Shown here: positions 16,198 through 20,243 of the stretch, piece by piece
Layout: the number at the start of each line of letters is the position of its first letter
Numbering within the stretch: the stretch's first letter is position 1
Origin: Prochlorococcus sp. MIT 0604
Lineage (GTDB): Bacteria > Cyanobacteriota > Cyanobacteriia > PCC-6307 > Cyanobiaceae
NCBI RefSeq assembly: GCF_000757845.1
Contig: NZ_CP007753.1
Location: forward strand, 434,001-498,000
Direction: 5' to 3'
Length of the DNA stretch: 64,000 nt
Position numbers and translations under genes: made by a program
The notes under the pieces: generated by a model
Told to the model about the DNA's origin: nothing
Databases searched by the model: none
What the model saw: the letters and a program-made list of their open reading frames with translations, nothing else

Positions 16198-17397
16198 ATG
16201 ACGCCTGAAAGGCTCGGATTACTTTGGGGAATAACTGTATTTGCAGGTGCTTGTGCGCGATTATTTTCTTCTTTAACAGGATTCCCCAGTGTTGTTATTT
16301 TATTACTTTCTGGATTACTTATAGGAAGATCAGGTTTAGGACTGGTTGAGCCTTTAGATCTTGGCCAAGGGCTTGAAACTATTGTAGGGCTTCTAGTCTG
16401 TTTGGTTCTATTTGAAGGTGGACTAAATTTAAAACTGCCTGAGGGGAATATAAGAAATACTGTTTTGAAAATTTCATTGGTAAGACTTTTTATTTCATTA
16501 TCAGCTGGAATTTTTATTGCGCATTGGCTGGCAGGCCTATCATGGCAAGTTGCAGGAATATATAGTGCCATCGTTTTAGCTACTGGACCAACAGTTGTTT
16601 CTCCATTAGTGGAACAAATAAAATTAGCTTCCCCTCTCTCGGAAGTTTTAAAAGCTGAGGGATTGTTGCTTGAACCAATTGGTGCAGTACTTGCATTACT
16701 GCTTTTAGAACTGACTTTAGGGGATCTACGTGGGATTAACGATGTATTTATAGCATTGATGCAAAGATTAGGGGGAGGAGTCTTAATCGGATTAAGCGCA
16801 GGATGGTTCCTATCAGAAATTTTAAAAAAAATAAAAAATGAAGCCTCATTTGGTATAGAGCTTCAAGTTACCCTTGGGTTTATTTTCCTTATGTATGGTA
16901 TTTGCGAATATTTTTTACCAGAATCAGGATTGCCGGCCTCTGTCGCGGCAGGTTTTATTGTAGGCAAAAGAGAAGTTATAGATAAGGAGAGATTGGATAA
17001 TCTAATAGGTGAATTAGCTCAATTAGCAATAACGGTTCTTTTCCCTCTTTTGGCCGCTGACGTTTCTTGGGGAGAATTAAGTCCGCTTGGCTGGGGAGGG
17101 GTTCTTTGCGTTTTTATGTTGATGGTAATTGTTCGCCCTATCTCTGTATGGATAGCAACTACGGGTGGAGAATTGAACTTAAAAGAAAAAATATTTTTAG
17201 CCTGGTTAGCCCCAAGAGGTATTGTTACTGCAGCGGTAGCTTCTCTTTTTTCTATCAGATTAGAGCAGGCTGGTATCCTTGGCGCTGGTCGTCTCCAAGG
17301 TTTAGTTTTTCTTACTATATTGATGACAGTAGGAATACAGGGTCTTTCAGCTAAACCTTTGGCGAGTAGGCTTGATTTAAACAAAAAAATAATTTAG
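16198..17397 (+). CDS. Na+/H+ antiporter, CPA1-type (NhaP-like)
   Basis: Cation/proton antiporter of the plasma or thylakoid membrane. The 399-residue protein has about twelve hydrophobic helices, with LSGLLIGRSGLGLVEP, LFEGGLNL (FEGGL/FEAG-type motif), ATGPTVVSPLV (the TDP-like/TGPT core unwound helix) and AWLAPRGIVTAAVASLF (the PRG motif with a conserved Arg). This set is typical of CPA1 NhaP/Sod_NhaE proteins. The ATG at 16198 is right at the first helix. Its stop TAG overlaps the convergent gltX stop by 4 nt. Na+ or K+ preference cannot be told. Confidence 0.9.
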   Translation: MTPERLGLLWGITVFAGACARLFSSLTGFPSVVILLLSGLLIGRSGLGLVEPLDLGQGLETIVGLLVCLVLFEGGLNLKLPEGNIRNTVLKISLVRLFISLSAGIFIAHWLAGLSWQVAGIYSAIVLATGPTVVSPLVEQIKLASPLSEVLKAEGLLLEPIGAVLALLLLELTLGDLRGINDVFIALMQRLGGGVLIGLSAGWFLSEILKKIKNEASFGIELQVTLGFIFLMYGICEYFLPESGLPASVAAGFIVGKREVIDKERLDNLIGELAQLAITVLFPLLAADVSWGELSPLGWGGVLCVFMLMVIVRPISVWIATTGGELNLKEKIFLAWLAPRGIVTAAVASLFSIRLEQAGILGAGRLQGLVFLTILMTVGIQGLSAKPLASRLDLNKKII

Positions 17398-18833
17398 GTT
17401 GATTTAAGACATCTTTCAATTCGAGATCTATCAGTTTTAATCTCTGAGAAAAGCTCCCAACTTTGTATTAAATCTGGCCCACTGAGAGATCCAAAAAAGG
17501 CTACTCTCAAAGATTTCATTAATATCCCTTTTTTAATATTATGAATTTTTGAGATTTCGTTTATTATTTCTTTGGCTTTCTCTTTATCTAGTTTTTCAGT
17601 ATTTTGCTCAGTTAAATAATTTAAGACTAGTTTTAAAGACGCTTTACTATCCTTGTTTTCCAGAAAGTCTTCGCCTTCTTTTTGAATTGCAGGTATTGAG
17701 AAAAATGGTTCTGATTGATCAATGGCATCCTTTAAAACAGTCATAGAGTCTCTAAGTAAAATTGCTAATTTATATGCCCATTCTTGAGATGGCGGTACCC
17801 AACCATTATCATTCCAGTATTTTCTCATGATCTCAATTAACTTTATTGATTCCATTTTTTTTATATATCGAGAATTAATCCAGTTAAGTTTTTCCCAACT
17901 GAATTTAGCCCCAGCTTTATTTATTTCTGACAAATCAAAAATTTCAGATATTTCATCAAGTGAAAGTATCTCTCTTTCGGAAGATTTTGGAGACCAACCT
18001 AAAAAGGCCATATAGTTCGATAAGGCCTCAGGTAAATATCCCATATCTCTAAATTCGTCGATTGAAGTAACGCAATCTCTTTTAGATAATTTTTTCCCTT
18101 CACTATTAAGTATTAAGGGTGTATGTGAAAAAGTTGGCAACTTAAAATTTAACGCTTTATAAATCAATATTTGTTTTGCAGTGTTCGAGATATGATCTTC
18201 ACCTCTTACAACATGAGTAATATTCATGAAATTGTCATCAACTACAACCGCAAGATTATATAAAGGATCTCCAATCTCATAACCCTTTGCCCTTCTTGAC
18301 AAAACTAAATCACCACCCAAGTCCTTCCCTTGCCAATTGATTTCGCCTCTTATCTGATCTACCCATGTAATTTGAATTTTCTCGTCAATCTTAAACCTTA
18401 TAACTGAATCTCTCCCTTTGGATATGAATGTTTCTATTTCTTTTTTTGAAAGATTTCTGTGTCTATTATCATGCTTTGGAGGTAATCCGCTCTTTTTTTG
18501 TTCTTCTCTTAATTCAGAGATTTCATCTTCTGTTGTAAAGCACCTATATGCAGCTCCACATTTCAAAAGCTTTTTGATGAAACTTTTGTGAATTAATATT
18601 CGGTCACTTTGCTTGATAGGTTCTTCATCCCATTTAAGTCCAAGCCATTTCAAGCCTTCTAATATATTTTCTGTGTATTCAGATTTAGATCGAAGAAAAT
18701 CTGTATCTTCTATTCTGATCAGAAATTTTCCACCTATTTTTTGTGCATACAACCAGTTAAATAATGCTGTACGAGCTGTACCAATATGAAATAAACCCGT
18801 TGGACTTGGGGCTAGTCTTAAACGTTTTTCCAA
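17394..18833 (-). CDS. gltX: Glutamyl-tRNA synthetase
   Basis: Charges tRNA-Glu, which in cyanobacteria also feeds chlorophyll and haem synthesis. The 479-residue class I enzyme has RLAPSPTGLFHIGTARTALF (HIGH-like HIGT, about residues 5-24), KKLSKRD (KMSKS-like, about 250) and an anticodon-binding C-terminal part. The start is TTG at 18833, since the family begins only a few residues before APSPTG. It is convergent with the antiporter (4-nt stop overlap), with tRNA-Asp just upstream on the same strand. Confidence 0.96.
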   Translation of the reverse strand: MEKRLRLAPSPTGLFHIGTARTALFNWLYAQKIGGKFLIRIEDTDFLRSKSEYTENILEGLKWLGLKWDEEPIKQSDRILIHKSFIKKLLKCGAAYRCFTTEDEISELREEQKKSGLPPKHDNRHRNLSKKEIETFISKGRDSVIRFKIDEKIQITWVDQIRGEINWQGKDLGGDLVLSRRAKGYEIGDPLYNLAVVVDDNFMNITHVVRGEDHISNTAKQILIYKALNFKLPTFSHTPLILNSEGKKLSKRDCVTSIDEFRDMGYLPEALSNYMAFLGWSPKSSEREILSLDEISEIFDLSEINKAGAKFSWEKLNWINSRYIKKMESIKLIEIMRKYWNDNGWVPPSQEWAYKLAILLRDSMTVLKDAIDQSEPFFSIPAIQKEGEDFLENKDSKASLKLVLNYLTEQNTEKLDKEKAKEIINEISKIHNIKKGILMKSLRVAFFGSLSGPDLIQSWELFSEIKTDRSRIERCLKST

Positions 18834-18850
18834 ATTGCTTTTAGAAAAAA

Positions 18851-18924
18851 CGGGACCGACGGGATTCGAACCCGCAACTTCCGCCGTGACAGGGCGGTGC
18901 TCTAACCAGTTGAACTACGGTCCC
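18851..18924 (-). tRNA. tRNA-Asp (GTC)
   Basis: A 74-nt cloverleaf on the minus strand. The acceptor stem GGGACCG pairs with CGGTCCC, the anticodon loop CTGTCAC carries GTC, and the T-arm reads GCGGGTTCGAATCCCGT. The discriminator is G and CCA is not encoded. It lies 17 nt upstream of gltX on the same strand. Confidence 0.97.
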
Positions 18925-19073
18925 AGAGTTTCATTCTAAATTTATTTAGAACTTCATTCTTAAAATTATCAGATCATAATACTTAATTTATTGTGTTGTA
19001 ATAAAAAAAATTTATTAATTTGAGGATTTACAGAAATAGTTACTTTAATAGCTGCCTGTGTATAAAAAACTAT

Positions 19074-19268
19074 TTATTTTTGAGGTCTAAAACCAGCAGG
19101 TTCTATCAACCTAACTTGGTTGCCTCTAGCGGTAAATTCTCTGCCTTGGTCACTTTGTACAACCACTCTCCCACCAGACTTAACTCTGATGACTCTTGCA
19201 CGAACCCATCCCAAAGCTGCTGATTCGAGGACTTTAACTACATCCCCAGGTTGAAGATCTAACTCCAT
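19074..19268 (-). CDS. Hyper-conserved picocyanobacterial protein (PSHCP-like, SH3-like)
   Basis: The 64-residue protein begins MELDLQPGDVVKVLES and goes on with ALGWVRARVIRVKSGGRVVV and a basic C-terminal half, a pattern of short beta strands as in SH3-like RNA-binding folds. I recall the hyper-conserved protein of Prochlorococcus and marine Synechococcus (PSHCP) as this sequence, with pull-downs linking it to the ribosome and to photosystem proteins; this is memory, not a search. A hand count over 19081-19260 gives about 47% G+C, well above its neighbours. It sits between tRNA-Asp and tRNA-Trp, near rplS, all on the minus strand. Confidence 0.88.
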   Translation of the reverse strand: MELDLQPGDVVKVLESAALGWVRARVIRVKSGGRVVVQSDQGREFTARGNQVRLIEPAGFRPQK

Positions 19269-19305
19269 CTTATGAAAAAAAATAATTTACATAGTGTTGA
19301 TTAAA

Positions 19306-19378
19306 CGCGTCGTGGAGGACTTGAACCCCCGACATCAGGTTTTGGAGACCTGCGTTCTACCAACTGAACTAACGACGC
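19306..19378 (-). tRNA. tRNA-Trp (CCA)
   Basis: A 73-nt cloverleaf on the minus strand. The acceptor stem GCGTCGT pairs with ACGACGC, the D-loop reads AGTTCAGTTGGTAGAAC, the anticodon loop TCTCCAAAA has CCA, and the T-loop is GGTTCAAGTCC. The discriminator is G and CCA is not encoded. It lies between rplS and the hyper-conserved gene. Confidence 0.97.
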
Positions 19379-19431
19379 ATCTAAATGATTATAGGCGTCT
19401 TTGTGACCAATAAGTTGATTAATTTACAACT

Positions 19432-19934: not shown

Positions 19935-20243
19935 TTAACCTTTTGACTCGCCTTTAGTAACCTTTTTGGCAAATGAAATTTTTTTTGAAAACATTTGAAA
20001 TCCAGTTATGAGCATCCATAAAACTCCAAGGGAATTCAATATTACGTATATTAATTCCCCATTATCGCCGAGCCATTCGCCCTCATGGAGAGACATTAAC
20101 CAATGAACTTGTTCTCTAGAGTAACCTAATAAATCTTTTGAAACCCTATAAAGAAGTCCGGTAATTGAAGATATAAATAATGGAAGAAAAACCCAAGGAG
20201 CCAAAGCCTTATGAAATTGTCTAGAATTAAATAAAATTTTCAT
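19935..20243 (-). CDS. PepSY-associated TM-like small membrane protein
   Basis: The 102-residue protein has FHKALAPWVFLPLFISSITG near the N-terminus (the H-x-x-x-G/A start of PepSY_TM domains), a second helix (ELIYVILNSLGVLWMLITGFQMF, about 63-85) and a loop LLGYSREQVHWLMSLHEGEW with two histidines. This resembles the first two helices of PepSY-TM proteins, which in full form are about four times longer. It could bind metal or haem in the membrane, but nothing proves it. It is transcribed in the same direction as rplS, 32 nt upstream. Confidence 0.7.
   Translation of the reverse strand: MKILFNSRQFHKALAPWVFLPLFISSITGLLYRVSKDLLGYSREQVHWLMSLHEGEWLGDNGELIYVILNSLGVLWMLITGFQMFSKKISFAKKVTKGESKG

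Follow-up and report, generated by a model that had tools for sequence, protein, structure and literature searches.

Protein-level conservation of PSHCP in picocyanobacteria, its locus in Prochlorococcus sp. MIT 0604, and a probable association with the large ribosomal subunit

Identity, fold and structural relatives

The closest described system is the Prochlorococcus/Synechococcus Hyper Conserved Protein (PSHCP) itself, the structure of which is said to be the subject of a 2019 paper by Bauer et al. (cited in PMC7585439) that reportedly names RNA binding in its title. In the part of Whidden 2014 (PMC4215834) available to us, pull-downs with PSHCP recover ribosomal protein L2, PsaD and Ycf48, the abundance of the protein is put at about the order of that of RbcL, variants of its C-terminal tail are mentioned, and the gene order rplS-trnW-pshcp-trnD-gltX is described. 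The window analysed here, a stretch of 64,000 nucleotides from Prochlorococcus sp. MIT 0604, carries on its minus strand, at 19074-19268, an open reading frame of 64 codons plus stop that begins with ATG. Its product is 100% identical over residues 1-56 to PDB 6nnb_A, deposited under the name 'Prochlorococcus/Synechococcus Hyper Conserved Protein' (E 2.9e-31). The sequence-only reading had identified the gene as PSHCP and had named ribosome and photosystem partners for its product; the first statement is upheld by the match to 6nnb_A and by the gene order given in Whidden 2014, and the second agrees with the pull-down partners in the available part of the same source (PMC4215834). Thus, the window protein resembles the described PSHCP in its sequence at residues 1-56, its length, its basic pI and its gene order, and differs from the protein in 6nnb by two extra C-terminal residues (QK). 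The gene is the known pshcp, and its identity, fold and location were already known and are not new.

PSHCP contains no Cys and no His, together with 8 Arg and 3 Lys (predicted pI 10.8), and Trp21, Phe45 and Phe60 are its only aromatic residues. The Pfam SH3_1 profile matches the protein at 21.9 bits, just below the cut-off of 22.9. Structure modelling from the window sequence plus 14 variants from the family gave five models with pLDDT values from 87.9 down to 55.3, the best of which (pLDDT 87.9) has strands at residues 10-15, 20-29, 34-39, 44-48 and 52-56. Foldseek places 6nnb at rank 1 for this model (2.5 Å, TM 0.72/0.78); 6nnb is not among the 50 VIA matches listed for it. As modelled, and given the sequence identity with the solved 6nnb, PSHCP is a five-stranded SH3-like barrel of the Tudor fold. 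The absence of Cys, the dense basic character and the SH3-like pattern of short strands that had been read from the sequence are all borne out by these results.

The structural neighbours returned by Foldseek and VIA include many Tudor domains, archaeal Spt5 and myosin barrels. Eukaryotic Tudor domains (TDRD3, PHF1, SMN and Tudor-SN) are the top VIA matches, with Z values of 8-9.4, but their sequence identity to PSHCP is low (5-28% among the matches listed), and many of them are, according to their titles, readers of methylated peptides, a role not seen for PSHCP. Rank 2 in Foldseek is held by chain z of 8r55, the MutS2-collided disome of B. subtilis, with archaeal Spt5 next. This chain, which would correspond to the barrel (KOW domain) of MutS2, has the same barrel as PSHCP in its residues 636-688 (VIA Z 8.2, 1.8 Å over 53 residues, 24% identity) and, according to the title of the entry, is found on ribosomes, as is likewise proposed for PSHCP. 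The MutS2 barrel, however, is part of a large ATPase, whereas PSHCP stands alone.

MutS2 is kept in all 13 of the family genomes that were searched. Comparison of PSHCP with the cyanobacterial MutS2 KOW domain by hhalign gave a probability of 46 and a score of 22.8 against a maximum of 21.4 among 60 shuffles, and the SW z values were 5.1 with all rows and 6.9 with family rows, in alignments that are out of register. This shuffle test does not discriminate, because the profiles of NusG and L19 likewise score above all 60 of their own shuffles. As the alignments pair the wrong strands, they do not show descent from the MutS2 KOW domain, and the match is retained as a structural likeness only. 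The C-terminal KOW domain of NusG and ribosomal protein L19 are also SH3-like barrels. Descent from the former, or from the neighbouring rplS, was rejected, with profile probabilities of 16 and 4 and z values against shuffled PSHCP of 1.4 and 0.7, respectively. The hhalign scores of NusG and L19 (20.4 and 18.0) are nevertheless higher than any obtained in 60 column shuffles (maxima 16.1 and 15.6), and we therefore regard a generic barrel pattern as common to PSHCP, NusG and L19.

Locus and distribution

pshcp and the four genes around it lie on the minus strand of the window. pshcp has tRNA-Trp (cca; 19305-19379) as its upstream and tRNA-Asp (gtc; 18850-18925) as its downstream neighbour, both recognised by the Rfam tRNA model, and outside these lie rplS, encoding ribosomal protein L19 (19432-19902; PF01245 and TIGR01024), and gltX, encoding glutamyl-tRNA synthetase (17394-18833; TIGR00464, 530 bits). 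The placement of a 64-codon gene between two tRNA genes, in a setting that includes gltX and rplS, had been proposed from the letters and is confirmed in the order rplS-trnW-pshcp-trnD-gltX. Among the genus representatives, trnW is directly upstream of pshcp in 52/52 and rplS is nearby in 51/52, the single miss being a contig that ends at trnW. Downstream, trnD occurs within 700 nt in 47/52 genera; two of the other five carry it farther on, beyond an additional open frame, and two have none in the examined stretch. gltX was found at the locus in 48/52 genera, with two of the misses being short contigs. A frame that stays open over 178-188 codons between stops lies 3' of pshcp in four genus representatives (L164, 993-1526, minus strand; L143, 937-1500, minus; L145, 967-1500, minus; L156, 1807-2340, plus) and is followed by trnD in three of them. 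Presumably, these frames resemble NADPH-dependent FMN reductase.

A promoter scan gave a single weak site, located in the spacer between pshcp and trnD, and fewer sites than in shuffled sequence. The same spacer in 26/52 genera (for example at L111, L107 and L124) contains a block composed of TTGACG, 12-22 nt and GATACTTC, which is perhaps the trnD promoter; the MIT 0604 genome lacks this block. On the other side of the locus, adjoining rplS, the window encodes a 102-residue protein (19935-20243, minus strand) with a match to the PepSY-associated TM family (PF03929, 33.2 bits).

PSHCP was found in 278 of the 300 family genomes sampled, that of MIT 0604 included, in 195/197 of those of high quality and in 53/59 genera; the corresponding values within its own genus are 49/61 genomes and 21/21 of high quality. 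A sample of the phylum (292 genomes) contained 36 family genomes with matches at E <1e-34, and its other 256 genomes, all from outside the family, gave none at E <= 0.001. Within the sample searched, PSHCP is restricted to the picocyanobacterial clade. The best four places outside the family (E 0.004-0.03) were rejected as homologues, as each falls within or spans an unrelated ORF, and we take two of these ORFs to be KdsB-like. PSHCP was not found in the phage records or viral contigs searched. Real loss within the family was also rejected for the 8 of the 22 match-less genomes that were checked, none of which has an intact locus minus pshcp: 6/8 have no rplS match, and in 2/8 the contig ends about 115 nt or less after rplS. 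One genome (G240) has two rplS pieces, each at a contig end (L208 and L209), a pattern suggestive of a break in the assembly at this point.

Conservation of the protein and its likely function

Rates were measured with one representative each from 52 of the 53 matching genera, one genus being dropped with its gene near a contig end; the best 80 of 364 pshcp loci are all identical and were excluded. Residues 1-60 of PSHCP are identical in 49/52 genus representatives. The three exceptions comprise one protein with E2D and two with a start two codons later, one of which also carries V10L and L19M; other variants seen are K12R, V13A, R43S, V52I, I55N and E56Q. The DNA, by comparison, exists in 52 distinct versions in 52 genera, and genes for identical proteins share a mean of 80.6% and a minimum of 69.4% of their nucleotides. 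Between genera, pS/pN is 0.726/0.0120 for pshcp (52 genera), 0.741/0.0813 for the rplS core (51) and 0.828/0.2119 for gltX (48), pS being quoted because many between-genus dS values are saturated. Within the genus of MIT 0604 (28 genomes), the values are 0.335/0.0015, 0.325/0.0175 and 0.416/0.0777 for pshcp, rplS and gltX, respectively; the pN of pshcp leans low here because 21 of the 28 loci were returned as best PSHCP matches. The comparison of synonymous with amino-acid sites suggested in the sequence-only reading therefore places silent divergence near that of rplS and amino-acid divergence about 7-fold below that of rplS and 18-fold below that of gltX, and the near-identity of the protein across strains, claimed in the same reading, is confirmed. 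Because 49 of 52 proteins are identical while the DNA occurs in 52 versions with silent divergence near that of rplS, the constraint acts on the protein, and the freeze of pshcp is at the protein level except in codons 2-9. The organisms that carry PSHCP dominate the oceans, and the protein is frozen to an extreme degree in them; these measurements place the freeze in the protein, with the G+C excess as a by-product and only eight codons under added constraint at the nucleotide level.

The account that we consider probable is that PSHCP, as a stand-alone Tudor/SH3-like barrel, would be an accessory factor specific to the clade: it would bind RNA and sit on or near the 50S ribosomal subunit, in contact with 23S rRNA and ribosomal protein L2, and nearly the whole of its surface would be fixed by partners that are themselves fixed. 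Ribosome binding would then be both the function of PSHCP and the cause of its freeze. The fold alone does not indicate the ribosome, because barrels from myosin and many Tudor domains that read histones or peptides stand in the same Foldseek and VIA lists. The neighbourhood is weak evidence as well, because tRNA genes are common landing sites. In addition, transcripts that contain both rplS and pshcp make up <2% of the pool in the available part of PMC4215834, which counts against a ribosomal role.

A rather unlikely alternative is that PSHCP couples ribosomes to the assembly of photosystems in the thylakoid, with PsaD and Ycf48 as its main partners and the ribosome contact serving co-translational insertion. 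Both proteins appear in the pull-downs of all three strains, although each strain yielded only 1-4 unique peptides for PsaD and a single peptide for Ycf48 (PMC4215834, in the part available). The occurrence of PSHCP, among the genomes sampled, only in this photosynthetic family is consistent with such a coupling, but there is no photosystem family among the four neighbourhood genes that were scanned.

Silent sites in pshcp are more conserved at its 5' end than in the rest of the gene. Over 60 scored codons, silent identity is slightly higher, at 0.423, than the 0.386 seen for comparable residues in rplS and gltX (P 0.016), and the excess is located in codons 2-9 (19242-19265, minus strand), with GAG in 46/49, GAT in 51/52 at both Asp4 and Asp9, and GGT in 40/52. 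Relative to the rest of the gene, the excess codon identity in 52 genera amounts to 0.324 at codons 2-9 and to 0.019 at codons 10-14. The values for gltX in 48 genera are -0.003 and 0.045, and those for psaC in 27 loci (L305-L331) are 0.331 and 0.160, the psaC result being the same with a narrow pattern (17/28 loci) and with the 27 loci over the cut-off. With a pooled reference, the excess in codons 2-9 is 0.046 for rpsL (28 loci) and 0.282 for pshcp (29 loci). Silent constraint at the 5' end is, then, neither a rule for all genes nor unique to pshcp. In psaC, strong silent-site conservation extends across the first 14 codons in the 27 loci.

The leader between trnW and the pshcp start codon measures 36 nt in the window (19269-19304, minus strand), where it has no Shine-Dalgarno match, and 33-66 nt in 52/52 genera (33-39 nt in 47/52). 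Shine-Dalgarno matches were not found in 48/52 pshcp, 13/17 psaC and 28/28 rpsL leaders, and the start regions of all three genes fold more weakly than mid-gene stretches. On a plain reading, the constraint on codons 2-9 would serve access to the start site, and ordinary accessibility suffices because psaC shows the same 5' constraint. The weaker folding shared with psaC and rpsL, the same constraint in psaC, and a leader and 5' end with 0 consensus RNA pairs all argue against a general role of PSHCP as an RNA chaperone or as a regulator that binds mRNAs, its own perhaps among them. We hold that role to be improbable, even though it could draw on the RNA binding reportedly named in the title of Bauer et al. 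2019, on the nucleotide-level constraint in codons 2-9, and on a short leader of near-constant length with the motif GCAGTTT in 26/52 genera; the motif is absent from the MIT 0604 genome itself and from half of the genera. A more specific proposal, that PSHCP attaches to its own mRNA at the 5' end, with codons 2-9 and the short leader forming an autoregulatory site that would keep its abundance in step with ribosomes as ribosomal proteins do, seems very doubtful to us, and its leader part is the weaker because the motif is missing from half of the genera and the gene's own genome.

The G+C content of pshcp had been put at about 47% against flanks of about 30%. The gene does stand above its surroundings, at a somewhat lower 44.6% (45.3% if the stop codon is left out), compared to 32.0% for the window, 33.6% and 36.0% for the 500-bp flanks, and 20% and 17% for the immediate spacers. 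From the protein and the codon use of five neighbouring genes, 43.4 +/- 1.8% is expected, and the observed 45.3% is reached in 19% of 5,000 simulations; the minimum that the PSHCP sequence permits is 34.9%. Across genera, the silent third-position G+C of pshcp ranges from 0.13 to 0.82 and tracks that of gltX (r = 0.90). The higher G+C of pshcp follows from its amino-acid make-up and therefore calls for no additional role of the DNA: of the two causes offered in the sequence-only reading, constraint on the protein is supported and the other, a general function of this DNA as RNA, is not, given silent sites that diverge about as in rplS and the expected G+C. The idea that the DNA itself is conserved, as an RNA gene or overlapping element that makes the stretch G+C-rich and invariant, has next to nothing left in its favour and is refuted beyond codon 9, since codons 2-9 account for the silent excess, the raised G+C and its course across genera are as described above, 52 DNA versions encode near-identical proteins, and Rfam at the gathering score gives no family except tRNA in the window and 20 loci.

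Origin of the gene

Outside the family, rplS-trnW is followed by a gene that we take from its motifs to be nusG-like in 12/16 loci (L224-L239) and in 19/33 genomes when the 16 loci are combined with 19 hand-picked ones, two being shared. In the MIT 0604 genome, nusG lies 229 kb from the pshcp locus. Two of the 33 outside genomes, both from family f10, have rplS, trnW, 204 bp and trnD without pshcp, and by eye the spacer contains a terminator-like hairpin after trnW and a TTGACA-type promoter before trnD. This arrangement is probably the empty site of pshcp. If it is real, the birthplace of pshcp would be between trnW and trnD, and the question of its origin becomes testable. A MutS2 tree of 24 rows puts the 13 family rows on one branch and does not resolve f10 as sister of the family; the direction of change is therefore our inference. 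In the same tree, the MutS2 of MIT 0604 (L298) has a very long branch, of 1.61 changes per column.
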